64,000 bases of DNA. Source: Siderastrea radians (Eukaryota > Cnidaria > Anthozoa > Scleractinia > Rhizangiidae). The notes below the pieces were generated by a model, which did no database searches, was not told the DNA's origin, and saw nothing but the letters and a program-made list of their open reading frames with translations. How positions within the stretch are numbered: position 1 is the first letter of the stretch; the number at the start of each line of letters is the position of its first letter. Shown piece by piece: positions 14,418 to 47,900 of this stretch. The position numbers were made by a program, and so were the translations under genes. The stretch spans positions 13,974,201 to 14,038,200 of the forward strand of contig OZ024888.1 of NCBI GenBank assembly GCA_964017195.1. The letters run 5' to 3'.

Positions 14418-15349
14418 TCATAACGGTTCCTGTTTCATTTCTTTAACGTCACACAATAGTTCATAAATGCTGTAGAAGTCGTCTGGCTGCTCGCATTTGA
14501 TGGGCGTCTGTGTACTGTGTGTTTTTTATGTACCTTTAAGCTAACTGCGTGGGTAAAACACTTGCCACACCGATCGCATTCAAAAGGTTTCTCTCCACTG
14601 TGTATTCTTTTATGTACCTTTAAACTACTTCCTCGCGAAAAGCATTTACCACACTGGTCGCATTCAAAAGGTTTCTCTCCGCTGTGTGTTCTTTCATGCA
14701 GCTTCAGATTACCTCCTTGAGAAAAGCATTTACCACACTGATCGCACCTAAAGGGTTTGTCTCCACTGTGAGTTCTTTTATGTTTCTTAAGAGCATCTGC
14801 TTGAGAAAAACCTCTGTCACACTGATCGCATTCAAACGGTTTCACTACACTGTGTATTCTTTTATGAACATTAAGATTACCTACTCGAGAAAAGCATTTA
14901 CCGCACTGTTCACATTCAAACGGTTTCTCTCCACTGTGTGTCCTTTTATGTTCCGTTACACAGGCTGCTTCAGTGAAACATTTACCGCACTCGTCACATT
15001 CAAACGGTTTCACTTCACTGTGTGTTCTTTTATGAGCTGTTAGATGGGCTGCTCGTCTGAAACATTTGCCACACTGATCACATTCAAAAGGTTTCTCTCC
15101 ACTGTGAGTTCTTTCATGTACCTTTAGATTACTTTTGTAACTAAAATATTTACCACATTGACCACATTGAACGAGTTTTTCTCCACTGTGTATTCTCTTA
15201 TGATTCTTGCCCTTCTGATCACTTTCAACAGGATTCCTTCTATTCGTTGCGTTCTTACGTCGTTGTAGATTTTCTGAATTCTCCTCAGAATGAGTTGTTT
15301 TTTGTTCCTTTAGACTCCTGCTATCGTCTTCTCTGTAGTTTGCCGCCAT
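14418..15349 (-). CDS. C2H2 zinc-finger protein, eight fingers, probable frameshift near the C-terminus
   Basis: Translation starts at an ATG in a strong context (gaaccATGG). A 50-residue charged lead (MAANYREDDSRS) precedes an uninterrupted array: seven clear C-x2-C-x12-H-x3-H fingers joined by HSGEKP or HSVVKP linkers, then an eighth, damaged finger. Such arrays bind DNA in the nucleus. The specificity-determining positions differ between fingers. As it stands the frame ends at 14435 with finger 8 broken after KVHKKH. At a run of six T (14522-14527), adding back one base would restore an ordinary HKxTHS finger end, and the other frame then reads on to a stop at 14418 with an acidic tail (CEQPDDFYSIYELL...KQEPL). 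So this is either a one-base sequencing or assembly error or a real null/variant allele. The gene appears single-exon; no KRAB or BTB is visible. Confidence 0.85.
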
Positions 15350-17690
15350 GGTTCAAATTTGTAGATTAGTAGTGACCACAAATGGTACGTGTTCCCTCAG
15401 CCTGAAGAGAGAAAATGACTTCTCTACTTGACTTGGAGAGAATAGAAAGATGTAAAAACTATAACTATTCAGTGAACGCTCTACTTATGTACCTCACCTA
15501 AGCACCTACAGAGACTTATAACTACTGTCAGAGTAGTTTGGAAGGTTGTGAAAAGATAGACAAGTACAGACGTAAAAAACATGACAAAATACAACAAATT
15601 ATTGACGGCTAGAATCCAAGACCTTCGCCTTGCAATATTTCGGCCGAAATCCATCCCAGTTTCCTCCAAACCCTCACGTTCGGCTTGTATTTGACTAACA
15701 ACAAATATGCATTTCACTACTTGATCTGTGCTAAAAATATGAGTCCGGAAATCACAGTGAAAGCAAGCGGTTAAGACCATTGCGTGGTAGTTAGTTCGGT
15801 CGTATACTTAACATGAACAGCATGCCGTTTGAAACAAAACTTGGTAACTGCATGGGTACGAAACGTCTAAATTGCGTGGGTACAAATCGTCCGAGTTGGG
15901 TACGAATCGTCTGGGAACAAAACTTCCTTGGGTACAAAACGTCTGGTAAGCCTACAAAAGAGGTTAAAGCAACTAAAAGAGCGAGAGGAGGTCTGGGAAT
16001 TCATGCCTAAATTAGAACCAGTGGCTGGTTGAGATCTTCTTCAGGGGAGTACATGAAAAAATCTCAGCCCATAAGAAATGACATGGAAATGAGCATTTTT
16101 TGTTCAAATTATTCAATCCATATATTGTCTGTCTTCATAAGGCCCCTTATGTGGACACTAACTTACTGTTGCTCTGGCAGTAACAAATGCTTGTTATTGA
16201 ATCCACTATGAAAAGTGAGAAATGTAGAACTCTCATTCTAAGGCTTATTAAATTTCCACAACTCGAGAACTTGAACAGTAATTATAAATATAATGCATTT
16301 ATTCTAGTATACATTTAAAAGTGCACTGCAATTTTATCCATAAGTTATGATTATAATAGTAAACGGTAAGACATTTTTCATGATAGAAATGCTCTTAGTA
16401 AAAATGATGCTTAAAAGAGCATATCCTTGTAAGGTTGCGACCACTGTTCTGAATTTCCAAGGCGGTCACTTAGAAGAGCTTTGACTGTATCTTTACTGGC
16501 GGTGCTTGTAACAGATGGGGCTAAAAGAATTATTCACAGCTGAAATCTATTGAACCACAAACAGCCCAAGTTCATGACTCCGAAAAGCCACAAATTTGGA
16601 ACCATGTAGTCATTAGTCATTACTAAAAGTGTTGTGATTCGCACATGACCCTTGCATCAGGTTTCAATATCACCTGATAAGAATGGATCTATATAGGGGT
16701 TCATTATATCGGACTTCCACTATACATGGAAAGCAAAGTTTGCCACCAAAAAATGGCTCTATTTACATGTACCTGAAAAAAAACACAACAGGATATACAG
16801 AGGCCAAGTTTATTTTGTTCATTTAACCAACTGACGCCCGTTGCGCCCCTATGCGCCCTAGAATGAGCAGGCGTCTTGTTCCACTTGTGTCGACATCAGT
16901 TTAAGTGACCCTGAAAAGCTTTGATAGTCAGGCGATGCAACGCAAAAAGATCTTGTAAATGATGCCTGAATGACAATGATCAGGTCACGTAAACCTGAGT
17001 AACAGCCAGAAAACCAAGCAACTTTTACCTCAAAAACACGAAAAAATCATGGCCTTCCCACCGACTGCTACTTTTGGCCAACTCTTTCCATTTCAAACGA
17101 GCTTTGAGGCCAAACTTTTCTCATCACCAGAAACAGTGGTCATATGGCTAACTCAACAGCAAAAAGCGAAAATCAAAATAATGATAACGAAAGCAACGGG
17201 CTTGTGCGCTAAATCTCGAAGAGCCGTAGAAATTCAAAATTCAAAATTTTGAATTGTGCGCATGATTGAACTCAAAATGCTAGAAAACATCCTGAAACCG
17301 AAAGAAACGGCAACTGTTCATACTAGAAAGCACTTTTCCTGAGAATTGGGACGAAATAGGATCAAACAGGGCTAAAAAAAAGGCCATTTGGTGATTAAAA
17401 GTGCCATTTTTTCGAAGCTTGCCGGGTGTCAATGGGTTAACTGAATTTGCTTGATAAAACTGCTAAAGTCCACAACATTTTAATCTCACACAACGTCTTA
17501 TTACAGAGTGCTGAATTTCTTAATGGATGACATTGTAACCCTGAATGCTCTTTCAAAGAGACTGGTGGACTGGACTGGTGGATCAAGGTGAAGAATCCAG
17601 GGGGTCTGGGCCCTCCTTCTCCCTTCTTTGAACTTCATACTTGAAATAATCAGACACAAATCCAACTTGAAAGAATAATACTGCATTCAC
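15350..17690. other. Intergenic, no supported gene
   Basis: The immediate flank (15350-15480) is the zinc-finger 5' UTR/promoter side. A 99-residue - strand frame (15481-15780) has a hydrophobic stretch but no homology that I recognise. A decayed mariner-type end lies at 16690-16726. Nothing else is called. Confidence 0.4.
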
Positions 17691-24914: not shown

Positions 24915-26456
24915 TTACAAAGTAGTATCCCAGATTTCATTTAAATACCACAGCTCCTCCAGGAGATCTCGAACTTGTGACGCATTTGGTCGAACATCCG
25001 GGTCTTGCTCAAGACATATTTGCATAACTTCTTGAAGCTGGCAAAAGGGAGAGAAATACGAAATAAATGAAATAAAGTGTCACTAATATAAAGTGATACT
25101 TTAAATAAATGAAATAAATTGTCGCTAATATAAAGTGATACTTTAAAACCTTGACTGTTTCTTACAACAGACTCACGGACTTGCTTTTTAATTATAATGA
25201 CTACCTACTCTATGGAAACGATAGATCTCTCATCTATGTCTAAATCAGGGCATACAAAGGTACGTAATGTAGCGTAGTTTTGGCGGACCTAACGAAAGCA
25301 AACCAACAACATTTGGTGAAATGTACAGGTAAAAGGAAGAGTTCGTGGGGTACCTCTACAAAATCTTCAGAATCGCGGCAGTTCTTCATCATCTCAACCA
25401 ACACAAAGCCGAACTGAAGAATGTTCTTTCCTAAAATGTCTTTCACTGAGTGGCCGTCTTTTATAAAGTCGGGAAAGTCCTGAGAGACTTGTTGAGCTGA
25501 TCCAAATCCGCCCAAGACAGCTGTTATTGGAGGAACCTAATAAAAATAAACGTCAGTTTATTAGTTGGCGCAGCATTTAAGAGGTTCAAGCTCGGATACA
25601 TGATTACATGTTGGTGTAAAGAGAATGTCTGGAGCTTATATGGTGGATCCATCTCGACTTGAACAGGGAAGCACACAAAGTGTTCTCGGATAGAACTTTC
25701 TCGAGGTGCGCAAGGTCATTTCGGATTATATTAATTTGTGTTAGCCATATCAGAGGATTCAGCACTACGGGGTTGTCTTCTATTGAGTAAAGTTGAATTC
25801 AACGTGGTAATTTATTTTCATAGAATATTCACCCACATGAAGACTAGAAAGAGTCTAAGAGCACTGAATTAAATCATCATCAAATCCTAATCATTACATC
25901 ATTAAGTCAAGAAGACGGTCGCACAAAACCTGAAGTGACAGACTCGATCAACAACCAGAAGTGTATGTCAGTTTTTAGCCTGCAATAGCTCGAAACGTAT
26001 CTGAAGATCGATAAATGTTCTCTGAGCCGTTTTCTGAGGGTATGTATTATCTTCTGTTTGTATTTCTTCCAGAACTGGAAGGGAAAGCAATCTTGCAGAT
26101 GTTGGAATTGAGTTCAATGCGGCAGTCATACGCGCTAAGGTTTTTTTCTTGAATTTTTCAGAACGATTTTTCCTCTGCCCCTCCGTTTTCAATAGCTGTA
26201 CGCATTTTTGACACACGTTTGACGAGTCTGTTGCTATGGTTACGAGATAGTGAGTGTGGGGGTGTGACTTTGCTTGTACTTCCGAGGATTAATCTTTTGT
26301 CTTATGGTAACACCTTATCAACAAAACGGAAGTTCGCTTTCTAACTTGACGTGTTTTTGAATTCCAACTGTATTCTGTCAATGTATATATGTATTTCGAG
26401 GATTTTATTTGATCCATGTAATAATTATGGTCATTTATTCAGTTGCAGCGGTGTAG

Positions 26457-26494
<38 letters not shown>

Positions 26495-26633
26495 TTCTTG
26501 AACTTGAATAGAACGATATCAATATCGATTATCAACGATATTGATATTGCCTGATGAGTGTGGTCGTCCTTTGATCACACGAAACAGCGTTGTCCCAATA
26601 AAACGATGAATTGAAATCTGTCTACTTTTGATC

Positions 26634-26702
<69 letters not shown>

Positions 26703-27413
26703 TCTTGAACTTGGTTTGAATGTATTTCAGAGAGCGCTCAACTCTTAGAGGAGCATTGACAATTATAATAAACTGGTTCAAGACTTCAGAGGTAGTGCAT
26801 CGTGCACTGCACCTTTGGGTATACTCAAAGGCCCTGTCCGGGGAACTTATTACGGTCATTATTGTTTAAGGGCCCCCCCCCCCCCCCCAGGCCTCGATTT
26901 GGGATTTTGTTATGATCCATGTTTGCGTAAGCGTAGGTTGCTTTCCTTTTGACTGCTCTTTCTTTTGCCGCATTGCAAATGTCATCTTATTTGCATTAGT
27001 AGTTTTTAGTTTTTAGTCTTATCCGTCATCTTTTGTTAATTATTTTTATAGTAGCATATTTCCGGTCTTTTGTTAAATTTTTGCCTTGTATCGTTCATTT
27101 ATTTAGTGTTGTACCTGTATCTACACCTTATAATTACGTTTAATTGTTAGTTTTGTTTAGTTTTCCTTTTTTCGTTATATAATCGATGTACTATATTGTT
27201 TTTATTTTTCAATGTTTTTTATTAGTGTCACTTATCCTCGTTTTGGCATTGTTATAATCACGCCGGTTACGTAACACATAGCTTTGAATGGTATTTTGTG
27301 TCTTGTTTTGTACTGTAATCTTATTTAAGGTAGATTTGATAAGTTCAATTTTTCATTACATTTTTTAACTTTTCAGTCGTCAGAAGTTGTCCGTCCTCGC
27401 TTTCCTTCAACGA

Positions 27414-27463
<50 letters not shown>

Positions 27464-27775
27464 TCGTTGAAGGAAAGCGAGGACGGACAACTTCCGACGA
27501 TTAAAAAGTTAAAAAATTTAATAAAAAATAAAAACGTTTCGGTCTTAGACCTTCATCAGTTACATGAAACTGATGAAGTTTCATGTAACTGATGAAGGTC
27601 TAAGACCGAAACGTTTTTATTTTTTATTAAATTTTTTAACTTTTTAATCGTCAGAAGTTGTCCGTCCTCGCTTTCCTTCAACGAGTTTTAATTCCATGCA
27701 GTGAGGCTTGGACTGTGAATCTTTGATCCTCCTGACGCAGTGGCATTCTTTGTTGGCCTGAGGCAACCATTAACT

Positions 27776-27817
<42 letters not shown>

Positions 27818-29963
27818 CAATCTGTGAAAGCTGAAATATGGTTTTGGTAAACTGTTGGGATAATTTTGAAATTGGCGTGAGCTGAAAATGCATCTGACGC
27901 TTGTGTATTCGGGAAAGAGCCGAATTAAAAGCAAGAAACAGGAGCCTCTTGCAGACAAGACGAATACCTTTAACTACACATAAAGAAAAGGAACGGGCTA
28001 AAACATTAGTTTCAATCGAACAAAGGGGGAAAAATGTTAGAAGAATGATATTTCCGCAGATACTAGATAACATTCATTCTCCGTATCAGGAATGATGGCT
28101 ATTTCTTGTGTACAGCACGAAGCAATAGCATTAATTTCCCTCGTTTTCTTTTAACTGCTGCTGCTTATTTATACAAAACAACACTCGTTACATTTCTACC
28201 ATCTTACCCTTAATCCTCTTCCCATCAACACACTGGATGTTGTTATGTTGTTATGGACGACGCCCTTTTGTTCCATGTACTGTATAGCACAGATTAAGTC
28301 GATGGCTAGCACTAAAAGCGCGTCGAGGTTCAGAACAATTTCGCTGTTCTTCAAAAAATCGTCCAATGTCGTGTTTGCGGTGAAGTCGAAACATAGTAGG
28401 CTGTGTTTAAAATAAAAACGGTAAGAAAATGGTTTAATAGGGCGATACATTATTGTGATTACTTTTTGTCCACCTCAAGCCATGCCCATTCATCGCTAAA
28501 TTAGTGTGGAATTAAAAGGAAAAAAAGAGGCAATGAATTATGTATATTAACTTGTACATTCATCTGTTCACCATCAACGGATTTAATACGAACGCACAGA
28601 TGAACCAGCTCCCAGTTAGAGTGCTGCACCGGTATCGCATGGTCATGGGTTCGAATCTCATTCAAGCCTGATTTTTCTTTCAACTTCTTTCTTTCACCTT
28701 CATCTTTACTGCGGTGATCGTCATCATTTCTCAGAGGCAATAAAAGCAGTCAATCTTTAGCGCTATGAACTATTTGCCATAATTTTGTGTTCATGTACAT
28801 GCATTTTCATCTGCTCATAACTACATTTACGTGGGGTTACTATCGGGAACAATAAGAGAATGCGGGCGATAGAGGGCCTGAGTTTGTATGGTGTCGGGGA
28901 TGTAAGGACTGTAAGCAATTTTACTTACACATGGGCTTTTAATTTTTTTCGCTTAAATTCTACAGACTGCTTAAACGAGATTTCTCTTACAATGAACTGT
29001 TCTTGAGTCGAGGAAATCCATTTCGCTTGTAATTTAGAACACACTCCTCAGCTAGGAAAAGACAAGGAAAAGAAAATATAGGGTCATGTCAAGATTGAAA
29101 ATCAATTAGTTGATTGAAACAAAACCTTAACACTAGAACGAAGGTGACGCCAGCAACGCAAGGTACATCAAAGTTTCAAAATTTTGATATCGTTTCTCTG
29201 GCTACGTTGTGACATACCAATCTTGGTAGATCGTTGAGATTTGGTGTTGGTGCGCCCTGCTAGTTCAGGCTTACACGGAAGCCTCTGAGTTTGTTAATAG
29301 TTCATTCAGAGCACAAAGAGTACAAAGAGGAAGGGTTGATCTAGACTACAAGCGGTGGCTCTTTCCGCTAAGGGATAGTCGAGCAAAAAGAACACGCAAG
29401 TGAGCACGGAAATCGCCTGCCGCATAGAAACGTGACACGTTATGATGAGCTGCTGGACAACTGTTCTTCCTGCTTGACTATCCTTGAACGTAAAGAAAGA
29501 AGGTTGATCTTGTTTCATTGCATTCAGGTCTTAGTGGCACAAAACGTTACAGCAGAACCTGAATTGAACGTAAATTTGAACAGGGTCAGCTTTAAACGAG
29601 AAACTGCAAAATCACTGCATTGGTGGATTACTAGAAGCTTTTTGTGCTCTTTTGACTGAAAATTTCTTAATGTCAACTGATGAACTTTCCAAGAAGTCCC
29701 AGCAAAACCTAACTCTGACTGGTTTGAATTTATAATAATAATTTTGTAGTGGTATAAATTACTTGTAAGAGAAGACAAACGCATGTTAACATACTTGTAC
29801 AGTGCCAGCAGTATTTGAGAATATTTGGGTGCCCTCTTCCAGTTTGGAGCTCCTTTACGATTTCTGTCTCCTTTCTCCAATTGTCCTCCTTTGTTTTCGA
29901 AAAATGTTTTATCAGTCGCATAGGCGTGTCCTTTCCACTGCCAGACCATGCTACAACAAACCC
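24915..29963 (-). CDS. Exons 29-33: protein pseudokinase domain
   Basis: Exons 29963-29795, 29051-28991, 28400-28208, 25536-25354 and 25037-24915 join without a frame break. The N-lobe has [12 protein letters not shown], a beta-3 lysine candidate in MRLIKHFSK, the helix-C glutamate region ETEIVKEL and HPNILKYCW. The hinge side has [20 protein letters not shown], then [14 protein letters not shown]. The HRD motif is HNN (catalytic Asp lost) and DFG is GFG within [11 protein letters not shown] (metal-binding Asp lost). C-lobe: [17 protein letters not shown] and [20 protein letters not shown], then TAA. The family looks tyrosine-kinase/TKL-like but is divergent. By known rules for both motifs it should not transfer phosphate. 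The TA repeats, SINE and satellite lie in its introns. Confidence 0.85.
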
Positions 29964-32900
29964 CTAAAAGATAGAGAAATAACTCACGCATGTATAGATG
30001 TACTGTAAATTAATTGCACATGCTATTTAGCAAAATATATACGATTCAATACAGCGGCCGTATGTATATGAGGATCTAAAATAACTTATAACAATAAACT
30101 TATAACGAAATAATTATAACAATACAAGCTCACTTTTTCTATGTTACAACCCTTAAGGCTCGTTCACACGAGCGTCGCAAACGCAAATGCAAGCGGAAGC
30201 ACAAGCAAACACACGTGTAAACTACCCCAACGCAAATGCAAGTAAGTGCAAACGCAAAAAATGGAAAGTTTTCATTTCCTTGTGCTTGCATATGCGCTTG
30301 CGTTTGTATTTCACACGTGTGAACAGGGGCAACGTAAATGCAAGTGCCAACGCAAAGGCGAACGCAAGAAATGGAAAGGTTTTCTTTTCCTTGCGCTTGC
30401 ATATGCACTTGCGTTTGTATTTCACACGTGTGAACCGGGGCAACGCAAACGCCAACGCAAAAAATGGAAAGTTTTCATTTCCTTGCGCTTGCATTTGCAC
30501 TTGCGTTTGTATTTCACACGTGTGAACCGGGGCAACGCAAACGCCAACGCAAAAAATGGAAAGTTTTCATTTCCTTGCGCTTCCATTTACACTTGCGTTT
30601 GTATTTCACACGTGTGAACCGGGGCAACGCAAACGCCAACGCAAAAAATGGAAAGTTTTCATTTCCTTGCACTTGCATATGCACTTGCGTTTGTATTTCA
30701 CACGTGTGAACCGGGGCAACGCAAAGGACAACGCAAGAAATGGAAAGGTTTTCTTTTCCTTGCGCTTGCATATGCACTTGCGTTTGTATTTCACACGTGT
30801 GAACCGGGGCAACGCAAACGCCAACGCAAAAAATGGAATGTTTTCATTTCCTTGCGCTTCCATTTACACTTGCGTTTGTATTTCACACGTGTGAACCGGG
30901 GCAACGCAAACGCCAACGCAACAAATGGAAAGTTTTCATTCTTGCGCTTGCATATGCACTTGCGTTTGTATTTCACACGTGTGAACCGGGGCAACGCAAA
31001 CGCCAACGCAAAAAATGGAAAGTTTTCATTTCCTTGCGCTTCCATTTACACTTGCGTTTGTATTTCACACGTGTGAACCGGGGCAACGCAAACGCCAACG
31101 CAAAAAATGGAAAGTTTTCATTTCCTTGCACTTGCATATGCACTTGCGTTTGTATTTCACACGTGTGAACCGGGGCAACGCAAAGGACAACGCAAGAAAT
31201 GGAAAGGTTTTCTTTTCCTTGCGCTTGCATATGCACTTGCGTTTGTATTTCACACGTGTGAACCGGGGCAACGCAAACGCCAACGCAAAAAATGGAAAGT
31301 TTTCATTTCCTTGCGCTTCCATTTACACTTGCGTTTGTATTTCACACGTGTGAACCGGGGCAACGCAAACGCCAACGCAACAAATGGAAAGTTTTCATTC
31401 TTGCGCTTGCATATGCACTTGCGTTTGTATTTCACACGTGTGAACCGGGGCAACGCAAACGCCAACGCAAAAAATGGAAAATTTTCATTTCCTTGCGCCT
31501 GCATATGCACTTGCGTTTGTATTTCACACGTGTGAACCGGGGCAACGCAAATGCAAGTGCAAACACAAGATGGAAAATACTCGTTCCATGCCTTCGCGGT
31601 TTGAGTTCAAACCAAAATGGCGTCCCCCCTCAGTGACATCTGATGAAAAACGTGCAGAGAGCGTTACGAAGTATCTGGTTCTTTACGATGAAAGTTGCGC
31701 TGGATTCAGAGAAAAACTGAAACAAACAACTTGCATGGACTGATGTGGCTAAAGACGTGGGACTAGAAAACGGTATGTTGTACAATACGGAGGGAAATAA
31801 GTTATAAGTTGTGCAGAAAATGGAACACATTTATGATTAGTTTACAAACACAATAAAATGGTAATATTTTTCTATTTTTTTTCTTTTTACACATTTTTCG
31901 TTCCCGACTGCTGGTCTGGGGTAACGAGGATTCTGGGAACAAGATTGCCGCCATCTTGGGATACTGAAATGCGCGTGCCTATCTCATACTGCTTGCGTTT
32001 GTGTTTGACGTGTGAAGCAGCCTTTCGAACATTACACGAATACCTTCTTAATTGCATCCCTTGTCATAAAATATATAACTGACTGACCCCCAGCCACTTG
32101 CATTTTAATCACGATAATATCACAAATAACAAGCAACAGCTGTTCTTACCACTGAATAAGAAGTCTCATCCGGGAATACGTTTGAGATTTCGATCAGTTC
32201 CAAATCCGTCTCAGGCCCCTCGCATTCCGAAGTTAGATCTAAGTGTCCCGTTGAAGTGCTGGGAAATAGTGATGGGCTCAAACTTGACGCAAGAGTCGTC
32301 TGGGAAACACTCGAAAGTACTGTGTTGTGATGTGGTAATGGGTTCATCGGGATACCTTTTATTGCTAAAATCAAATGACATGCATATAGCTTCAATTAAA
32401 GTAGTGTCTGTCCGTTACAGCTCTGTGTTTTAGTTATCAGGTTATGCAGGCCTTTCCAACGAAATACACACATTTCGTGTTTTTTCGGTGCAAATAAACA
32501 GAACACTTCTGGAAAAGAAAATTAGGCATTAATTGTTATCCAGAATTTCGAAGGAAATTTTGCTTTTGAATTTTTGCTTTCGAAGGAAATTTTGCTTTTG
32601 TCAGTTCGATTCGCGTTAGCACTAAACAGGAATACGTCTTAGCTAGATTAAAGTCACCTTTAATCTGAGAAATTCAATAACAGATTGAGAACACTAAAGA
32701 TGAAAAGAATAAACGAATTTTGAGGCATTTCTTAAAGTAATAGCAGGTACGATCACATGCATCTAAGAAATGTCGTGTGTTATTTACGCAATGGAAAACT
32801 TTTTCCCTGTTTGCATAGCCTGATATAAACACGAGAGGGAGTTAGTGGCCTTTTTTGTGTGTTCATCGAATGTCACTTAGGCGAGAACGGAAATAACAAA

Positions 32901-35900
32901 CCTTGTGTCTTCTTTGGTCGTCGAAATTTTTTTCCTAAGAAACTGGTCAATGAATCCCTCTGTTCACCAACTTTTTTCCTCACGAGCGGAGTGGAGAATG
33001 TATACAGTATGGGGTTAATTGAAGAGTTTACTGGAAGGACGAACACAGCAATCCAGACATAGGCTTGTTTTTCAGGATCATGAAATTTGCCGAGTATAGA
33101 TAGGAGACCGATAAGGATGACAGGCATCCAGCACAAGAAATCAGTTAAAATAATAAACATCATTCTCCTAGCCATCTGCGATTCTCTGTTCATGTTAGTT
33201 GACCTGACCTGTTTTGAAACGCCCTTTACGGTGAAGAACATCGTAATGTATGCAAAAAGAATATAAACAAAAGAGATAAAGTTAAGTACGACGAAAATAC
33301 CGACGGCATATTCCCAGCCAGCCTGTCTTTCTGTTGACAATTGAAGAGGAAGGCAAACGGCTGATTTTCCATAAAATCCAACGTTTCGCTTTTTGTCAAA
33401 GAAGTATTCCAAACCAAATGTTGGAATTACCGATATCATAATTCCAAAAATCCAGATTCCTCCAACAACAAAGTAAGCAAATCCGCGGTTCATTCGTCTC
33501 ACTTTGAATGGGAAGACAATACAGATGAGTCTATCGGTTGTGATGAGGGTCAACATGAGCACGGAGACCTCGCTTGATACCATGGACAAGATTCCAGTGA
33601 ATGCACATGTCATGCCAGATCTCCAGTTAATATCATGTTTAAAGTACTCTCCTTGCCACTGGGCGTCTTTGATCGCAATGGTGAGCAGATAAACACCCAT
33701 AAGTAGATCTGAAAACGCCAGATTTGTCAAAAGAAAAGAGTGTACTTTGTTGTCTTCTTTTACAAATACTCGCATGAAGATGGCAAAGAGATTACCAAGA
33801 AGTGCAGAAAGTCCCAGAATCCAGATACAAACTTGAACTGCTTTGTTTTTCATCATATCAGAACAGCTAGAAAATTCATCTTTCGGTGAACTGCAGCGAA
33901 CGCCAGGCACTGCTTTTTCAGCATAACAACAGAGAATGAACTGATCAAGATAACTAATAAAAATATGGAGAAATAAAAAACAAACAAACAAAAAAAATCA
34001 AAATGGGTGTAATTATTTGCTTAAAATGTAGGCTTAAAAGAACTTAAGTGAAATAACTCATATGGACCATGGGCAATGAAAACAGCTATTACACGATCAA
34101 GGTCACTTGCTTGCTATCTAAAAGTAAAAGATTAGACAATGTAGGCTTTTTATTCAGAACGTTGACAGTCACGAAGTGAACGATGTTTGAAAAATACACA
34201 TAAAGTCACCAAGTTCCTTAAATAAAGACACGTATGACTTTATGGTATGTTCTCATTGACTGTTATATGGAAAGAAAACTTGTAATTCTGACTCACATTT
34301 CTGTAAGGCTTTGAAGTCCATTGAAAACGTCTGGTGGAACGTTTTTCAAACTGAGAGAGTTATTTTTAAGATTTCTGAAAATAACAAAAGCATCTCTACA
34401 GTTATTACATAACTCGCGATTTAAAAAATGCACGAACAGCTCGCTTTTGCATGATACGTTTCGTACATTATGATACGTGAATACTGTATTAAGACGTTCA
34501 TCATAGGACTAGAGTTGGTTGTTGATTAACCTGTTGCTAAAAGTGCTTGATAACAATACACCAGTTCGACTAACATTGATCTTTATACAGTATAAATTCT
34601 GTTCTTCCTAGGCGATTATTCGCCATGACGTTCATAAGCTTGCAATAGTTAAACTTACAATTTCTCCAAGGAGGACAATCCAGCAAATGTATAAGAGGAC
34701 AACTGCCGAATCCTGTTGTTATTAAGGTACCTAGAATCAAAAGTATTTGTGATATTTTTGGGCATGATTTTGATACAAGTTTAGTGTGCTCTAATACAAA
34801 CTTACGAAAAACAAACTAACCAATTAATATGGGAAAAAAATATTTAGGCTTGTGGGGGTATACAGCAAGCTCCTTTTTATTACTTTCCCTGCTTTGTTTG
34901 TTGACTGCATTAGCATATTGACATCCGAGGATAGTAGCATACACTGTCCTAAAGCCACTTGGAAACTCTCTCATTTAAAGTTTAGTCATTGTTTGGCTGC
35001 TACACGCCGAACATAATTATTCTTGGTGTTCATCATTGTGATAAAAAGAATTTGCTTGGATGAGCAACACTCAGAAACAAAGGAGTTAAACGGAAGGGAA
35101 AAACAAACATCGAAAACAATTTCTGGACCTACAGTACTCTCCTGAACAAAGTTATCGAGAAAAAGCAATCTATCGACATCTAACTTTCCTTGAAGATTTT
35201 TCTCACTGCTGTGTTGAATATATTAAAAGAGCAGTTTTGTGGTGACGTCACATGACGTCACATGAAAACCAGCAATTGCATTAATCAAAAATGCAAAATC
35301 TTAAATTTGACATGTTAAGTATATGGTTAACAGTCACAGCTGGGACCAAACTGCAAGCAAAGTAACGAGAGTCGGCAAGCGTAGACGTACACGGGGATGC
35401 TTTTATTGATATGCGATGGCTTTTGATATTTTATTCAACTGAAAGGTGTTGACAGTTTTCTGATTTACACAGTAAATGCATCGAGCATTTTGTTCATTCC
35501 ATTACTTCCGCTGAAACTCTTTGGCAGTGTTCGAGAGATACCCACTTCTTTCACTAAACATACGTTTGCTGTCAGATGGTCAAACGGAGAAGAGCAATGT
35601 ATTTTACTTACAGTATTTTAAGCTTCGATAAGCCTATAAAGACGTTATCAGGCAGTTCTTCTAATAGATTCCGTTGAAGATATCTAAGTGAAAAATTTAA
35701 GACAGGTTAAGAGAAGAAAGACCTGGAACTTGCAAAAAGCACCTAGAAAAACGAGTTTCTTCTTGTTTCACTTACAGGTGTTCTAAGTTTCTTGTCCCAT
35801 TGAACGTTTCCTTGTGAATCCTGGTTATCTGGTTCTCTCTGAGGCTTCTACAAACACGAAATGGAAAAAAAGTGACTATACATGTTTCGATTCTGGAAAT

Positions 35901-38900
35901 CACTTAACTTGAGTTCCAGCAATATCTATGTATATGTATTGTGCAACAAAAACCAAAGAAATTACAGAGCTAATCACGAGCACAAGTAATTAAAACTTCA
36001 GCCAATCGCGTAGCCTAGTACAACCATGATTGGTTTTCTAGCCAATCGAAACACACAACACACAAATCAAATAAAAGTCACCGGCCGCAATTGGTTTTAG
36101 TTTTGCAGCTGATTGGCTGCAAAGCTCGCGGGAGTTTTTAAACCAATCAGAGAGCAAAGTAAAGTAAAACCAAAGCAATTAACCAATACCTTTCTCTATT
36201 ACTGACTTACAGTGTTTTCAGCGAGAACAATGAAACGAGAGCAGTCGACGGAATGCCTTCAATCAAATTGTAACTACAGTCCCTATTCAAAAAACAAAAC
36301 AAAAACAAAAGTCAACAAAGCTATACAAACAAACAAGGGGGTCAGTTTCTAAAGAAACTGTTGCTGCGTCAGCGGGGGAGTGAAACACAAAACCTTGGAT
36401 TTATCAACTGAGTAGATAAGGTAAATTGGCCATCGTAGAGAAATTGAAATCTGACGTTTCGAGCGATAGCCCCTCGTCAAAGCGAATCAAGGAAAAAAAC
36501 CCACAATTCCTTGATTTGCTCTAACGAAGGGCTAAAGCTCGAAACGTTAGCTTTCAATTTCCCTACGGTGGCCAATTCACCCTATCAACTCAGTTGACCA
36601 ATCCAAATTTTCAAGCTACACAAACCATAATCCAGATTCCTACTTACAAAGTCTGAAGACTGCTCATATTGTCCAAAATGCCGTTAGGAAACGTCCGAAT
36701 GAAATTTGTGTCAAGCTTCCTGTAACAAAATATATTCGGAAGAGTGCAGTGTACCATCTCAGAGCACATGGCAAAAAAATATACAAAACCAAAGATTTCC
36801 TAGATAAGTTGTTATTATTTACACAATAACCAATATGATATTTTTTCCAGTGTTTCGATACGTTGCGAATTGAAGCCTCCACTTAACATTCAGCTAATTT
36901 GGACACGGGACTACTACTGCGCCATCAGCTACTTAAACACCAGTTTCCTAGCGTATATAGACTACAAGGAATATTTGGTTGAGATGCTAGCCACCCCAAA
37001 GGTACACTTAACCCTTAAAGCCCTGATATAAAAATGCATTTTCTTCTCACTGTTCTCCATGGAACTAGTAAGGAGAATTTCTCTAAATATCAAGACATCT
37101 CATCCTTGGCGATCAATTCGTTTATTCTCTTCACTTGAATGTTTGAACAGGTCATAATGTGAAGGGAAATTTCCTTTTTTTCACTGTCAATGCTTAACGG
37201 GTTAGTGGTTAACCCTTACCGGTATTAACACACCTGGCTTGAGAGAGGCAAGGCAAGACAAAAGCTTTTTCTAATTTAAAAAGGCCTCAACGCGATGGAA
37301 GAGACCTAGAAAACCCACATAAGTCTTTGAAAAGCTGTTAGTATTAATGCCAATGAGGCCCCATTAGGGGTTATGGGGATACGGGATATTAGCGGAGGGG
37401 ATACGGGATACCGAAGGAAAAAATTATAGGGATACGGGATATTTGAAATAGAAATATTGGGATATTCAATGCGAAGTTTAGGGATACAATACTGCACAAT
37501 AAAAGGGATATGGGATATTTCACGAAAAAGTTAAAGGGATACGGGATACCCAGACTCCCCAAATGGGGCCTCGCCGATGCAAAAGTTTAAGCTCATCCTG
37601 ATAGAACAATAACATGATCAATCGACATTCAGTTAGTACTTTATTAGCTAATGAATTGGAAGTTGCTGACACTTTCTTTGCAACTTTCTGTGAACATGGT
37701 TTCCACTTACAAGGCTTCAAGTGAAGAGCCATTGCCAAATGCTCCTCTTTCTATTTTGAAAATACGGTTTCCACTCAGGTCCCTGTAGATGTTTCAGATA
37801 AAACTCAGAGTTACTATCTACAGCCTCCGATTATTTTAGATCTAGTAACGATTTTTTTAAATCTATTTAGCGGTTTGTCTTGGTTTAGCCTGAAAAATGG
37901 ACAACTGGCACAGCCTCTATTCACCCCTCTACTTGCTCTACCAGTCAATAAATAACTTGAATTTTCAATATACAAAAAAATCATAATTATTGAAACATGT
38001 AGCTTAACAAATACTTAAGTCCTTTGGAAAACAGGAAATGTAATCAAATAGTGAGTGAGACAAAAAATGCCTTCCGGCATTTCAAGTGACTTATCCCAAG
38101 AAGTTTCTTTCTAGAACCGTTTTACTGGTAAACTATACATGTCAGTCATCGACTCCAGAAGTCAAATAACTGCCTTATAATTTTTCTTCTCCAAGATGAT
38201 GTCTGTCATTGAGAAGCAACAAGGTAAACCAGCTAATCCAGTACTTACAAGTACTTCAACCTGTAAAGACCAGAAAATGCTTTCTTGTGTAGACAAGAGA
38301 GTTTATTCCTCTGAAATAGTCTGCCGAAATAACGCAATAAACATGTTAAAACAAGGCTATGCACTAAGACCACCAGTCCATAAGAAATATTGCCGGAATT
38401 CTGAAACAGTATTTAACTAGTTTAATTTGTCGCTGCCATTTTAGTTGAGACTCATTATTCATATCTAAAGAACGACAAAGCAACCAAGGGTCTGGCAAAT
38501 CGAGAAGTTTATTTAGGGAAAAGCAATTCGCTACATTGTGTTAGATCCAAGGGGTATTAATTGAATCATTACATTTCGAGTATGCTTGTTTGTCCTATGT
38601 AATTTATTTCATTAGGAGTAAAGTAGGTCAAGTCTGTGTCTCATCAGGGCCCAAGTTATTAGGAGCATTAATACTTCCCTCTTGATGGTATACTAGTCCA
38701 TCACAGGAGTTCTTTCAAATATGAAAGGTAAGCACTTTTAGCCCTACCAAGAGGGAAACAGCGTATAGTTGACTTACATTACGGCTGTGTTCAAAGGGAT
38801 GTTTCCCGGCACAGCATTCAGTTCTCGTCCCTTCTTAACTGTGACCACCATATCACGACGCGTGGGAGAAATGAGATTACACTCGCAACTGGAGGGACAA

Positions 38901-41900
38901 CCTTATAATGAGAACACAAAAAAGAGTGGATAATGGAAAATATTGCATCATACAATAATACTTTACATTTAATCTCTTTAACGCACATTTTGCTTGGTGT
39001 TTTGTACCCAAATGAAACAAGAATCTGCGAACATTCGACCCTTTTTTTTATTTTGGTTCGGCTGCGACGAAATAAAGCCAATCCATAATATCATTGTAAG
39101 CATTAGTCATTTTTCTGTGAGGATGTAGCAAAAGTATCGTAACTCATCTCAGCGGTGACCAGAGTGGAGTTTTGGTGGAGGTAATCTAAAATACTGGCGT
39201 CTGTGTCAGTCTACTGACAGGTTTATCAGAATCATTTCTTGATAATGCAGTGCAATCGTATTAATTCCTTTATATAGATCACGCTGATTACCTTGGATGC
39301 ACTCGGTTTGGCCAACCTCAGCTGGAGGAATAATAATAAAAAAGACATTAATGCAAGGAAATGAATATAAAAGTATAATTGGGAATGAGGCTACGCGTAT
39401 ACAAGCTTTACCAGCTCTGTATTTAAGCAATAGAAAACTTTTCCCTTGTATGCACAACCTGTTATAAACACGAGAGGGGTTGGCAGAATTCTAGACAGTT
39501 GTGCAAACCCAAGAAGAAGTCAAGGGTTTGCAAAACTTTTGAGAACTCTCCCAACCCCATAAGTGTTTATATCAGGCTATGACAAACGCAGGAAAAGGTT
39601 TTCTATTGCTTTTATAAAATAAGTTAAGTCCTCTCAAAGATCGTGACGTCATAACTGTGTTTACATACTCTCATGCAAACAGACCTCTCAGCCAATACTT
39701 GTATTCTTGTTTATTTATTCATTTTCTGAAGTAAAGATAAAATGAGATATTAACAACTCTCCCAGATTTCGTTCTCAGTGAGTAGGCTGAGAGAGATGTT
39801 GGCAGTGTCGGCAATTCCAAAAGTTGGAGCAGCCATACCTGTCTGAAAAACCCTATTTTTCCTATATGATTTACCAGCCGTACGAGCTCACTAAAACAAA
39901 ACTCATTTATTCGACATCTCACCTTTCTGTGAAGTGTAATGTAGTTTCAGGCCGGACCTTGTTCCCTTGTCGTTACTCACAAAGGTTATTTCCATAACAT
40001 TTGAAGATGACTCAATGAAGGCTGGAAATCGTTGTCCGCAGTATCTTCCTATTTTGGTCCTTGCCTTAGCCTGCCCACTGTACACTTCTATGAAATCATT
40101 GTCACAAGAAGGATGATCCTCTAATTGAAATTCCAAGAATCGCAGTTTTATGGTGGTGCCAGGAGGAAGGCTGATTGTCCAGTGGCAACGAGTGAGAGGT
40201 GGATAGTAACCAGGGTAATGTGGGGAGTAAATGAAGCCTGATGAATCAGTGAAGTTTCTGTCGCATACTAAGGAAGAGTGACATGGAAGTCAATTAAAGA
40301 TGCCTTAACTCTGGGGGATGGGGGAGGATGCCACCCCGTCACAGGCTTTTTCTCCATTTTTTTTTTCAAGAAACTTTTTGTCACTACCTGCCGTTTACAG
40401 TAGCTGTCCACTTATAACTTAAACATATTTTGGCAGTCTTTGAAGAGCTGGTTACTATGTTTTCGAGATATGATGTGATAAGTACCACGAAGTCAAGCCA
40501 TTTTTGAATAAAACTACGTGTTTTTCGCCTTTTGTTCGGTGGAAAAAAGTATAAAATGCCGACAAAAGCGGAAAATTGTTTGACTATATCGTGTTTTACT
40601 TGTCTAGCATGTAAAATTTTCAATTCAGCAGTTTCTTCATATTTCTAATTTCTATTCGCGTCATCTTGTCCACCATTTTGGATGACGTCACATGTTTCCA
40701 GTATCGTCCGAAACCATAATATTTACCACCATTTCTACAGCACAGCACAGGCTATCTATCAAAGGTAAAATGTTTTCAAAATATTTGAACACAACGAAAT
40801 CCCAAGGTGGGTTCATCAACAGCCCCCTCTTGTACTACAGTGGAGTTGTGCGTTAAGAGGCGTTAATAAGAAAAGATAACCTATTAGTTAGTCGCTAGTA
40901 ATCTATTAGTTGTAATTCATACTTTATTGTGTCAGTGTTATATTCTTCTTGTTATTTTTAATATGGGTAAAGTAAATTGAAGCCATATTCAATATTATTT
41001 CTGCATGGTCATTCCGAGCAAATGCTTTCAGACCCATGTTGGCATGTGGTACCTTTTGTTGCTCTGATAGGGACTGGGTGACAATATCCGGATATTACAT
41101 GCACGCCTCGTACACTAATGTAGCCAGGTTCACTGCCCAAATCCGCTTCCAAAGAAACCTAAAAAGGATAAAAATAAAAGCATTATTTATTCGTTTTTTA
41201 TTAATTAACCTACGACAGCCTTCCGTGAAAAATGTTCTGCCACACCCATATAGCAAGCATTTTTTTCCCCTTAAGAAAATAGAAGCCTATTAAGAAACTA
41301 GATAGCTTAAATTCTAAGCAGGCACAAACATATAAGAACGTTTTCGGGTTTTTGCTGTATTAGAAGTTATTAAAGTCAAATGACCTATATCCGTCAATTG
41401 CGGGATTTCTACGTAATATCGACGCTTCAAGCGTTTATTTACGATGAGCCTTAACGTAGAATAGAATAACATGTAAAAACATTTAATTCTATTTCATTTT
41501 ATGTACCCCATTTCACTCTAAAGATTATAACTGTTAATTATCCTTTACTTGTCACATGGCGCAAATATTCGTCTCTCAAGGCTAAAACTGAGTAAAGCCT
41601 GGCACGTTTTAAATGGCTCCCAAGCTTGACAGCTTTTCGGCAAATATTCGAAAAGTTATGATCTTTTAGTAGATTTTATTTAAATTAAGCTCCAACCATG
41701 CCTTAAGTGGCCTGAGTGACAGCGTTATCCCTGTCCTGTGAAATAGCGTAAAAGCTCTATTAAGCCCCCTCTCTAATACCCCCCTTCTGAAAGCCCTTTT
41801 TTTTATAAGCCACCCCTTTCTAATAAGCCCCCTTCCCATTCCCGTTTATGAGGCCTGAATTTAGATAAGCCCCTGGGGGCTTAATAGGGATTTTATTACG

Positions 41901-44900
41901 AGAGAACAAACGTTTCTTAGAAAGGGCTTGAAGCAGAATTTAAATTCTCCCTTCTTTGTAAAGAAAATTTTTAATTGCACTCTTATTCCTAGGTCTAAAT
42001 CAAAACTTGACAAAGGTTGCCAAATTTTCTTAAAAGGGAAGTATCCAATTTTCAAGAATAATCTAATGATAATCGTCTTTACCTTGTGTTTCGTTACACT
42101 CGGTACTGCTACTCTTCCGTAATTCCAAACCCTGTCTGTATTGAATGATTCATTCACTGCCCATATTAACCTCCTTGTGTGGTTTACTAAGTCTAATTGT
42201 TGGTAAAAACGAAGAACCCGTGTTCCAAGGCCATACGAGAGATATCTGAAGAGTACACAGACACTATCTCCTTTATAGGACCGCTCGTAGAGTGGACTTT
42301 CAAAAAGAGATGTTTCCGATGACCGGGAAGTACTATTTCTGAATACGGTATATCGGTATCCTTAAAAAGAAAAAAGAAAAACTGGATTTAGTGTTAGTGA
42401 AGCAGGTGCCCAGGAAGCGGGAGTCGTGTCTCCAATTCTGTCAAAAAACGTCATTTTTTTGCAACAGAAGCAAAAAATCTATCTCCTGCCGTTTAAGCTA
42501 CCTGGCCCCAGTTGTTCAAAAGTTGGATAGCGCTATCCACCGGATAAATCTCTATCCAGTGGATAACGCAATTGGTTTCCCTAATACTTATCCACTGGAT
42601 AGTGATTTATCCGGTGGATAGTGCTATCCAACTTTTGAACAACTGGGGCCTGAATGGAACATATGATAAGTATCCTCCTACAAAATCGATGCATTTGCCT
42701 TTCTAATACCGTATCGCAAGAATGCTACATTAGTTCTCAATAGTATCTTTGGAGGACTAATTATCTAACGGGGGAAGTCTGGGAAGATTACCGGAGTGGT
42801 CTAAAGACAATCTAAAGAAAGCGCTGCTGTTCTCAATATTGTTTAAGGTGCATAATCGAGCCCTTTTCCTACTCACCTTCAGCATCCACACACATTGCTG
42901 GTCTTTGTACTTTAACATCTCCAACCAAACCCGCAATCAACTGCGACCAGGGCAAGATGACATTTACAAGATTTCCGCCGCAGCCGTGCGACATCCACGT
43001 TATGACCTTACTATCGAGGGCTTTGTTAAAGATGTTTACGTAGCTGATCAAGCCAATGAACTGGCCAGCTCTGGGATCTTCTTTTGCCTGATCCTCTGTT
43101 AGTCCAACAGTCAATTCACCCCTTCCTGTTGAAGATAAACTTCATTTTCATTGTGATAAAATTAAAAAAAACCCTTGGCTTGTAGGACGTAAAAGAAACA
43201 ACAACTAAAAGTGCATTTAATTAAAGGCAAGAAAAGTGCCGCTGTACAACTGACGTAAACGTATTAGATGAATTCGTGTACGTGATCAAGATGTTACCAG
43301 TTTTTGAGCGCATTTACACCTTTAATGTCCATCTAGTTTATTCATACGGCAGTCCTTTTGCTTTGATGCCCGGTAGCTGTCCTCCATCTTACTTATTTCT
43401 ACACCTTAACAATAATAACGACAGCAACAACATTAACCCCGAAAGAAATGTCAGCCGGATTGACGTCTGTGGGGATGATATTTATTTTGTTTAATTCATC
43501 CTAGACTCCGTATTGGGATAGAGCGCCCTTTCAAAAAGTCTCAACTAGAAATAGGAATTCATCCCAAAATCAATTTTCAATATACACCCAGTTGAAAAAA
43601 CGTTGTCGGGTAAAAAGCGTAAATCATTGACAGTGCGATCCAATGGTGCTCTGGGAAGCATGAAAACTTGCCTCTATTCTTAGACACGTGTACATTATAA
43701 TAACACAGCATGTCTTAATTTACTCTTTGAATTATCTTGGAAAGAAAATATCTTGAATATCAAGAAATGAAACCCAGTAACAAACTTGCCCCTGTCATCT
43801 TCCCAGAGTTCCATTGTGTCGCATTGTCCATCGTTTATACTTTTCAGCCGAACACGTTTTTCAAACGGGTGTCTATTAATTCTTTCTGCTTTATCATTCT
43901 GCAAAGGTTGTTATTAATCATATTTCACCCCCTTCTTTGGGGTGACGTCTACTGTAGGTTCAAACATCAGTATGCTTTTATTTCTGGGGCATTCCAATCT
44001 GATACGTCTTTGTTTTTACTCGTTCTCAAAGACCATATTTTTGCAACGAATATCGCCTAGAAAATAGCACATACCGGGAATCGCTTCTCCACTAGAGAAT
44101 CCACTTCCTGAGAATATTGAATTGTCATTGTGGATTGTGACCTTTCCTCCATCAGAAGTCCAAACCAAACAAATGTGATGCCATTTCCCGTCATTTGCTG
44201 TAGAATTCGTTTTTGTCCTAAAGAAAAACAATTGTGTAAATACTGCATTTTTGATAGGGCAGTTTTTCATAAGAGCTATCAAATTTACCTGCAAAGGAGT
44301 TATTTGCATTCATGGCTATGCTGCATGATACTGTGAAGGATAATATACGATATAGCACAGAGGGGTGTAATTACTTGTTATCTAAAGGGGATGCAAGGCT
44401 TTTCTCTTAGTGTTGACCACCACGCCTATTTGGTGTCAAAGACGTTTTTATCTTGAGAAAGCATGACGGCCGGGTTATTTGAGCACTGCGCTTGTTCTGA
44501 GCGCTTCCTGAATTTTAAACAACGCAGCCTTGCACGACCGTGACTAGCCCCATGCGGTTCGGGTTGTTAAAAAATGTTTGTGTTCAATTTGTGGTAATGT
44601 ACGTTCTTACGTTTGCAGTGTCATTATTAGCGGCCAGTGAAAGACTACGGTAGAAAACTTCAAAAATAAAACGAACACTTAAAGGCCAAAACAAGCTGGA
44701 ATCAAAACAGGAAACAAAAGCTTTATGCAAAAAAAAAACAACAACAAAAACAAAAACAAACAACCAAACAAACAATAAGACGCCATCGTAACACACACTT
44801 ACGGAGTCGTCTCGCCAACATACACATAAAATCCTTGGTAGTCGATGAGTGCAATGGCGATGATATATTTTCCTTTACTTTCGTAGCGAACCCTGTACCA

Positions 44901-47900
44901 CAAGGGAGTGCCTGCACTCGTTTTGTCTGAAGTCTTCATCCAAAAGCAGACCGTGAATGCAACGAGATCTGGGAGATCAGTGATGTTCACATAACCAGTG
45001 TGGTTCACAGGAAAGTCTAGTTGGTAGTTACTTTCCTTTACAGAACCTGTAAAAAAATATGGCTTGACATTTTTATGTGCTTTCATTTCACTTTAAGCCT
45101 TTAAGCGAAACTTTTAACACAAATAAGAGTTTTCAGCACGCAGACTGGATTGAGGAAAATTAAATGAACGTTTTTTTTCCTTTCATCGTATAATAACGCT
45201 TATAATAAGATTCCACTAGTGGCTTGCATAATTTTACAAATTATGGTTTGTGCGACACAAAATGTCTTACCTATTATCTAACTTTAACTAAATACTAATC
45301 TTATTTTTAGTACTTTCTTTTTCAACCCGCTTTAATTATTAATGCAGTAAATATATCAGGGAAGGTTAACGATCCTGTGGCCCTACAGAATTAAATGCAA
45401 ATATGTTTGAAGTGAAAGATGTTTTGTCGAGTGTTTTAACCTGACGCTGGATTCAATCCTTTCCTTTGTAAATACGAATTGACTTGAATAGTTGAGCGTT
45501 CCATTTCTTGCTTCAGTGTTTGTCTCCAGGGTGAACCCTTTTGGTTAGAGTTTACCCAACCGCACATTCCTTGGGAAAATTCACGACAACCACCGTCCAC
45601 TGCAAACAAATGAGAGGTAGAAGATAAGAATTGCTTTTTTAAAAAAAGAAATGTACAATCTATGTGAGAAATTAAGTAAGATTCTAAGATTGGAAGATAT
45701 GATGCCACGTTATGCCAAAAAATGGAAGTAAAAAGTTTTTACTTAATGGTAAAGAATAAAGATGACCTTAACTGTATGCATGAGCACCGTGCATTCCGGA
45801 TAAATGAATGAACGAGTAAATAGATGAATGGAGGGATGGATGGATGGATGGATGGATGGATGGATGGATGGATGGACTGAGGGAGGTATGGATGGATGGA
45901 TGGATGGATGGATGGATTGAGGGAGGTATGGATGTGACGTGACGTGTTGTGATGTGATGTGATTCAATGTAATGTAATATAATATGATGTGCTGTGATGC
46001 GCTGTGATGTGATGTGTGATGAATTGGTGGATCATAGTGCATGGAGGGTAACTTTCCAGACAGAGTAGTCCAAACAAGCTACGGATTACCGACTTACCAG
46101 CACACCAATCCCATGTAAAACGTGTTTGGTTATTTGAAGACAATGGGCACCATAAATCCTGGTTTTCTTCAGTTGTACATGTAGTGTGTTGCTTATTTTT
46201 GTAAATGAAAGGGAAATCGCAGCAACCTCCACCAGCCGTACGTCGTATTGGGCATAGTGATCGTGTTGGGCCTAGAACAAAAATATTATGATCTTACCTT
46301 TCCTCTCATTCTGTGAAATGACATAACTGTAACTGATCATTAATTCCTTTCTATTATTATATAGACAAAAGTGTTTTAGTGGAAAATAGATCACTCGTAA
46401 AGTTCATACGAAACTACATCCGGGACTTGAGTGGCGTATTTTCCATGTCCTCACTAGTGAGGATATCGATGACGTCATTTCCCGCTCTTACACTTTTGTT
46501 TGTGCAAAAATACTTTCGTCCATACAATAAAAAGAAAAATTACACGGTAGCTTGAAGATATGAATTTTATTTTCTCTTGGTTAAAAAGCAATATTTTACT
46601 CACTCGCTGCGCCCGTTCATAAAATATTGTTTTTACCACTCGAAATAAAATTCATATCTTCACGCCGCCGAGTAATGTCCTCTGTATCTTTCTTGCGATG
46701 AAACTGTAATTGAAAAAGAGTTGTTTAACAGCTTTCTTAGCTGACCGAGTTTGTAGTGAGCAAACGTAACGATTATTACTGATGTTGCTTTGTTTTTCTT
46801 GTCTTGAATGTGAATTGAACCGACGCTTTAGTAACTGATTGACATTACGCTGTGCATGCATGCATAGAGGAAAAAAAACAATAAATGGGTCAAGTTTTGG
46901 TAGAGATTGGCTATAAATTAGGATGTTAAAAACTTCTGTAATTTGAACAATAACAACAAGATCTTACGTTCTTTATCTTTTAACCCTACTCTGCCTGGGG
47001 GGGGGGGTGGGGGGCACATTGTGCACGCGCTGACTTTAGTGAATAATAACTTTTAAACGGCTTGACGAATAATCACCAAATCTCGTAACTTTTCCCAAAA
47101 TTTATCAGAGAAAATCTTCCTTTGTCAATGACGTGTCTATGATGATTAACGTTTTCATAGCAACCGTCTACTCAGAAGTGTATTTTGACTATTTTCTGTC
47201 TTCTTGCAGTCTTTTTTCAGGTTTTTTCCCCTTGGTTTGTAAGAAGACGATTTTTTTTTTATTTTTGTGTGCTTGTTTTGACTAAGTATGTTTCTTAGAA
47301 CAAAATCATATATTTTTTGGTGACGTCATTGTCAGCTGTATGACTGCAGGTTTGGGATTCAAGATGGCGGCCTCAAATTCAAAATGGCGGGTTTGTGACG
47401 TTATTGTGACGTCAAGACATGTCAAAATTGACGCATCATAAGCCCAATCTGTTAAGGTAATGACGTGCTACAAACTTGCAAAGTTTCATTGCAAGAGCTT
47501 TAATACTTTTTGAGATCTATGGGGGGGGGGGGGGGGAGGGTGCCCTCTCCCAGGCTCAGAAACTCAAAAAGTGCCCAGGCAGAATAGGGTTAACGGATGG
47601 AACATTCCTTATTTGGGCCTCTCAAGGCGCTGTACCTTTTTTGTATAATATTAAAAATAAAGAACTTACGATATAAAGTGAAAACTTCTCCCCGTGTAAG
47701 TGGGCGGAAAAATATCCCTAGATCTCTCAAGAATCCGTGGAATACTTCCTTTGTGTCTTTTTTGTAGCCGAGCTCATACGTCGTGTGATTGGTCAGATTA
47801 AGGTCAATATTTTCCCCGTTATATTCGGAGGGCTCTTCACCAGCTTCCAATCCGTCTAAGTACAACTTTCCTTTGCGGGTGCTGCGATTCCAAATAAACA

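Follow-up and report, generated by a model that had tools for sequence, protein, structure and literature searches.

Several receptors are known in which a seven-transmembrane (7TM) domain is followed by a C-terminal domain of the protein-kinase fold, as in the GPCR-TKL 'bigrams' of oomycetes and Dictyostelium, G-protein-coupled receptors (GPCRs) whose kinases are predicted to be catalytic and which in 8 of the 17 P. infestans members carry an additional DEP domain (PMC5784254, PMC6033456). Passages of a 2018 survey record GPCR-TKLs from oomycetes and amoebozoans alone, and call GPCR-bigrams in metazoans 'rare or even nonexistent' (PMC5784254). Holozoan 7TM-kinase fusions are represented by choanoflagellate GPCR-TKL/K and GPCR-TK and by sponge GPCR-TK; in the relevant parts of a 2025 survey, metazoan GPCR-TKs are given only from sponges, the 7TMs of acanthoecid GPCR-TKL/K cluster with no other GPCR, and neither group has a functionally characterised member (PMC12716839). 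The locus described here, on contig OZ024888.1 of the coral Siderastrea radians (source genome of 805 Mb in 439 contigs), shares this plan: within a window of 64,000 nucleotides, the whole stretch of DNA analysed, it appears to encode a leucine-rich-repeat GPCR (LGR) whose 7TM domain continues into a pseudokinase.

In its receptor part the gene resembles the type C LGRs, including RXFP1, RXFP2, the cnidarian LGRs and GRL101, which likewise have a leucine-rich repeat (LRR) ectodomain and a hinge and 7TM of relaxin-receptor type. CUB domains are described in Nematostella LGR4, and in the portions of that Nematostella LGR review that were covered the word kinase occurs 0 times (PMC9545775). A preliminary description of this DNA had named GPCR-lipid-kinase fusions of Dictyostelium and oomycetes as the known precedents, which, given the published fusions listed above, was too narrow. 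No report of a cnidarian LGR-kinase fusion was recognised in the literature searched, whose scope excluded most subscription journals and bioRxiv. The proteins themselves are already public, labelled for instance 'relaxin receptor 2-like' or 'GRL101-like', and many of the coral entries come with the two domains precomputed; it is as a conserved receptor class that the fusion appears to be unreported. The Pfam cut-offs are not reached by the pseudokinases of the proteins from Nematostella, Exaiptasia and Paramuricea, and domain surveys may therefore have passed these proteins by.

Structure of the fusion gene

The 7TM-pseudokinase part of the gene occupies positions 33953-24915 on the minus strand, in seven exons; these, and the read-through past the first of them, are listed with the evidence in brackets.

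32902..33953, minus strand: hinge and 7TM exon of relaxin-receptor type, donor AAG/GTTTGT (Pfam, nearest structure, paralogs)
32873..32901, minus strand: 7TM frame read on beyond the donor as far as TGA, a possible, weakly supported, intron-retention short form
32150..32364, minus strand: linker exon with phase-1 acceptor and phase-0 donor (length and AG/GT edges kept in 4/4 close paralogs)
29795..29963, minus strand: kinase exon k1, N-lobe, beta3 Lys and alphaC Glu kept (spliced frame, alignment, paralogs)
28991..29051, minus strand: kinase exon k2 (spliced frame, paralogs)
28208..28400, minus strand: kinase exon k3, HNN replacing HRD (spliced frame, alignment, paralogs)
25354..25536, minus strand: kinase exon k4, GFG replacing DFG (spliced frame, alignment, paralogs)
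24915..25037, minus strand: kinase exon k5 and stop, ending -WDTTL, class-I PDZ-type (spliced frame, alignment, paralogs)

Spliced in the order 7TM, linker, pseudokinase, these exons give a single frame that stays open for 664 codons up to the stop, and all inner exon boundaries are AG/GT, as expected of GT-AG introns. The 7TM exon, the linker and the five kinase exons thus lie where the preliminary description had put them; the phases that it had read for the linker are correct, the joined frame staying open across them, and both of its phase-1 donors, at 32902 and 32968, are present and keep the frame. We favour the donor at 32902, because the match to Porites lutea P0002 continues (KVGE...RPKTTQ against KVGE...RPKKTQ, by eye) as far as this point and because its GTTTGT is kept in 4/4 close paralogs.

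The 7TM exon matches Pfam 7tm_1 (E=9.3e-36), and its nearest solved structures by sequence are RXFP1 (E=2e-57) and then TSHR (6e-43). It is therefore a Rhodopsin-class 7TM closest to the RXFP and glycoprotein-hormone receptors, as in type C LGRs, and the relaxin-receptor-like identity first proposed for it stands. In the linker-kinase part the Pfam match is PK_Tyr_Ser-Thr (E=8.2e-11; 42.1 bits, the cut-off being 23.1); an NCBIfam scan gave nothing informative.

Beyond the 32902 donor the 7TM frame runs on through GLLFPFSPK and then meets TGA at 32875-32873, so that the stop from which two isoforms had been proposed does exist. The short form itself fares less well: among 17 copies compared, the post-donor tails are alike only within groups of recent copies (C2 13.70-20.22 Mb; two C3 copies near 60 Mb; C12 20.36 and 32.49 Mb) and not across diverged groups. 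An isoform ending at 32873 would be an intron read-through that bears no sign of constraint, and we put it forward only tentatively.

Evidence for a single gene

A search with the joined protein found relatives covering 95-100% of it in gene models from 10 anthozoan species, with identities of 70% in Porites lutea, 62-64% in Acropora millepora and A. digitifera, 48-50% in Oculina, 48% in Orbicella, 41% in Nematostella, 40% in both Exaiptasia and Stylophora, and 39% in both Desmophyllum and the octocoral Paramuricea. Such full-length fused proteins are not expected if the locus holds two head-to-tail genes, one for an ordinary LGR with its end at 32873 and one for a pseudokinase with its start near 32395, an arrangement to which the stop 29 nt past the 7TM donor, and an ATG inside the linker exon whose Met is kept in the C2 paralogs, would lend themselves. 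That Met is replaced by Leu in Porites P0002 (by eye), and the tail that would end the first of two genes is not conserved among diverged copies.

Genome-wide linkage, closer than chance would give, points the same way. The pseudokinase query had 27 matches with E<=0.001 in the home genome (50 candidates, all scored), and 27/27 lie on the same strand as an LGR 7TM exon and within 14,554 bp 3' of it, at nine loci spread over three large contigs. P0060, used as a second and more distant query, had eight matches, seven of them at known loci or continuing one: four at C3:32.78-32.80 Mb, one at C8:17.57 Mb and two at known C2 loci, the eighth being at C3:20.67 Mb. In addition P0023, encoded on a contig of 1331 nt, has 413 continuous residues that take in TM6, TM7, the linker and the kinase as far as its end, a span which in this genome takes about 8 kb with introns; for this reason the contig looks like cDNA, with a retrocopy as the alternative, and an intronless join of 7TM and kinase speaks against two genes.

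LGR relatives without a kinase do exist, and some database models hold the kinase without the 7TM (P0123), as two separate genes would predict; nevertheless, with every one of the 27 kinase matches beside an LGR 7TM exon and with fused relatives in other species, we reject the two-gene reading, to which we leave only the slightest chance. That the 7TM-pseudokinase fusion is real at the level of gene models we regard as close to certain. The single protein with LGR 7TM and kinase tail envisaged in the preliminary description is thus borne out by the fused relatives, the linkage and the intact paralogs described below.

Paralogs and selection

In 4/4 close paralogs the 664-codon frame has no stop and no missing codon, the 7TM exon aligns over 349/349 codons, and the linker and kinase exons have the same lengths with AG and GT dinucleotides kept; a reading of 124 versus 123 for k5 in the 13.70 copy is an alignment edge, the open frame there ending -WDTSL. 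The ratio of non-synonymous to synonymous substitution rates (dN/dS) was taken for ten pairs among five copies, pairs which are far from independent and which include a near-identical one, that of the window copy with the 14.167 copy. For the kinase it was 0.25-0.47 in nine defined pairs (p from 0.012 to 6.5e-9) and undefined in the window/14.167 pair; for the 7TM it was 0.11-0.21 in nine pairs and 0 in the window/14.167 pair; and for the linker it was 0.32-0.97 in nine pairs, falling below 1 at p<0.05 only in the four pairs with the 20.22 copy. On these values selection maintains the kinase, with less stringency than it does the 7TM, and the linker is loose.

The near-identical second copy (G000:C2:14153500-14169440; L011, L034, L002) lies about 160 kb away. 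Its exon-bearing blocks have mostly 98-99.8% DNA identity, extra sequence is present in its k3-k4 intron, and it is one of four copies clustered at C2:13.68-14.26 Mb. Elsewhere, the k5 exon of the C8 copy was not found within 6 kb of additional sequence.

The pseudokinase and the C-terminus

Both catalytic aspartates occur together in 0/20 aligned tails, and this gene has HNN for HRD and GFG for DFG; since no tail keeps both, the tail is probably non-catalytic, and we uphold with high confidence the pseudokinase call made previously. The fold itself is that of a protein kinase, predicted with good confidence; it has 30 residues fewer than Lck between matched C-lobe blocks. The beta3 Lys is retained in 18/20 and the alphaC Glu in 19/20 aligned tails (the Lys-Glu pair in 18/20), the catalytic-loop Asp in P0060 and P0061, and the DFG Asp in P0052. 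These remnants, together with the predicted fold, are what a kinase active by an unusual mechanism, and thus a hybrid of GPCR and receptor kinase, would have in its favour; weighed against the loss of the catalytic residues and the shortened C-lobe they leave it very improbable, and we reject an active kinase as the default. The Lys-Glu pair is also retained in several nucleotide-binding pseudokinases, and its presence in this pseudokinase would be compatible with nucleotide binding, which may or may not occur.

The C-terminal ending, which the preliminary description had not noted, follows the class-I PDZ ligand pattern. It is found, as [ST]-x-[VLI], in 17/20 aligned tails, the exceptions being P0007 (whose model stops within the kinase), P0010 (which ends in DKYL) and P0124 (run together with unrelated sequence). 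In the genome, 6/8 paralog ends were read, those of C8 and C3:32.78 standing outside the count, and all six agree (DTTL, DTSL, DTSL, DTTL, DTFL, DTFL). Among kinase-less LGR rows, 5/49 end in DTRL or ETKL (P0068, P0069, P0092, P0106, P0117); of the other 44, raw genome or metagenome contigs may run into an intron, and models P0113, P0114, P0119 and P0121 end otherwise. The DTRL and ETKL ends on kinase-less relatives suggest a receptor tail that was PDZ-anchored whether or not it had a kinase, the kinase lying between TM7 and the anchor.

Evolutionary history

No kinase is seen within 10 kb downstream of a 52% copy at C3:64.02 Mb or of seven 43-45% copies (C2, C12), and two kinase queries likewise had no match at these eight copies. 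In a tree of 34 7TM rows, 21 kinase-bearing and 13 kinase-less (the label resting on 10 kb of downstream sequence for the eight genomic copies, the other five being proteins picked from the 49 kinase-less rows for DTRL-type, complete-looking ends), the kinase label needs four changes. Because the architecture is common to the kinase-bearing rows, one gain with losses is the simplest history, and a single gain before the hexacoral-octocoral split followed by several losses is the reading that we adopt provisionally.

Two further regions, C1:6506831-6510181 and C1:6592165-6666409 (G000), hold split relatives of the 7TM exon at 40-63% identity, some with stops; they may be pseudogenes, or genes in which introns interrupt the 7TM.

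The upstream ectodomain

Upstream of the hinge, exons for a large ectodomain can be followed on the same strand.

34297..38902, minus strand: LRR N-cap and several leucine-rich repeat exons, edges approximate (tblastn of P0125, P0122, P0005)
39906..40289, minus strand: CUB exon region (Pfam CUB E=4.7e-33; 77% to P0125)
41024..45627, minus strand: laminin-G/pentraxin-like and MAM-like exons, approximate (tblastn of P0125; domains named on P0125)

Exon-by-exon matches to P0125 can be followed from 45.6 kb; they take in laminin-G-like, MAM-like, CUB, LRR and hinge parts and reach into the linker and k1. An LRR ectodomain with a Cys-rich hinge is thus present by exon-wise matches to P0125, P0122 and P0005, the last two LRR exons being 34730-34659 and 34374-34297, and LRR_8 is found in P0125 and P0012. 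The MAM exon 42080-42361 by itself scores 26.0 bits, slightly below the cut-off of 26.4. No LDLa module was found in relatives P0125 and P0012 or in a pattern scan of window open reading frames (ORFs) of >=30 aa, the exons having been traced up to about 45.6 kb. MAM, laminin-G and fibronectin type II exons at 59418-59936, 47593-47943 and 45967-46293 (minus strand) belong to this gene or to a neighbour.

Other features of the window

30348..31551, no strand: 92-bp tandem array of 13.1 copies, inside the linker-k1 intron

The array has 93% matches and a consensus unit containing the palindrome CACACGTGTG; we give it no role in the mechanism proposed below. At 62282-63999 (minus strand) are long ORFs resembling, as we presume, the protein-primed DNA polymerase B of a Polinton-type element, and a Pfam scan of one of them, 62282-62992, found nothing. 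An ORF at 14438-15352 (minus strand) holds many C2H2 zinc fingers (by eye).

Proposed function

On sequence grounds it is well established that the frame is joined and is conserved in anthozoans and in paralogs, that catalytic residues are lost, that selection is purifying and that the C-terminus is conserved. Beyond this, we propose that the LRR ectodomain would bind a peptide or protein ligand and so switch the 7TM, which, since it retains the DRL, CWMP and NPILY motifs, probably couples to G proteins. The cytoplasmic tail would consist of a fast-evolving linker, a compact pseudokinase of tyrosine-kinase fold and a C-terminal PDZ-type ligand; the pseudokinase would not phosphorylate but would act as a docking or allosteric module, holding partner kinases or other effectors beneath the receptor, and the C-terminus would anchor the complex to PDZ scaffolds. 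Taken as a whole, the scaffold or allosteric role included, we consider this account reasonably probable.

Several observations weigh against it. A single clade of all 21 kinase-bearing rows is rejected (p-AU 0.034, with several long branches present), and some relatives within the same LGR clade have no kinase. The linker is under weak constraint, its dN/dS reaching 0.97, and is not confidently modelled. The P0060 match at C3:20.67 Mb (E=5.9e-4, 28% over 125 aa), which we take for a generic kinase, is away from any known LGR copy, and P0122, P0123 and P0125 are database models with the kinase and without all or most of the 7TM, through either mis-annotation or alternative splicing. Finally, the fusion is known in this species from genomic sequence, and the sole contig consistent with a spliced mRNA, that of P0023, has no stated organism or sample.

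Pseudokinases such as JAK JH2, HER3 and KSR are precedents for allosteric activation, and the pseudokinase described here might similarly go beyond a scaffold and activate a separate active kinase, so that the LGR would offer another way into a tyrosine-kinase cascade. JAK-family, ITK/BTK, PKR and DAPK kinases are among the 60 best of 1410 PDB profile matches, and the Lys-Glu pair is there in 18/20 tails; but any partner kinase is hypothetical, and the JAK similarity is generic and at the level of the fold (16-22% identity in fold-search rows, from lists so dominated by JAK and SYK that the absence of other kinase families is uninformative), so that we think such activation unlikely, if worth stating. 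Somewhat more doubtful again is the full form of this idea, an ancient anthozoan class, older than the hexacoral-octocoral split and expanded in corals, in which the pseudokinase of a ligand-bound GPCR allosterically switches a partner tyrosine-kinase cascade; if true, animals would have a form of signalling that is part GPCR and part receptor kinase.

Comparison with known systems

GPCR-kinase fusions have been regarded as all but missing from animals, and are found here in corals, sea anemones and a sea fan: a Rhodopsin-class, hormone-type receptor with a pseudokinase that selection has kept, in hexacorals and an octocoral and at nine loci in one coral genome. As Nematostella has a member (P0038), the role of a kinase-fold tail on a GPCR can be tested in a laboratory animal.

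Compared with the type C LGRs, the present receptor adds a pseudokinase tail, and its ectodomain has laminin-G, MAM and CUB parts with no LDLa seen. It has the C-terminal kinase-fold domain after the 7TM, in gene models and relatives, that defines a fusion receptor, without predicted catalytic competence; and, in contrast to the GPCR-TKL bigrams, its 7TM is that of an LGR, its ectodomain is large, its kinase is probably dead and its end is PDZ-type. From acanthoecid GPCR-TKL/K, as published, it differs in that the 7TM is an LGR. JAK JH2, HER3 and CCK4/PTK7 are pseudokinases of receptors or of JAK type, and likewise place a tyrosine-kinase fold without catalytic residues at a receptor; here, in contrast, such a fold would be tethered directly to a 7TM receptor, with its C-lobe shortened.

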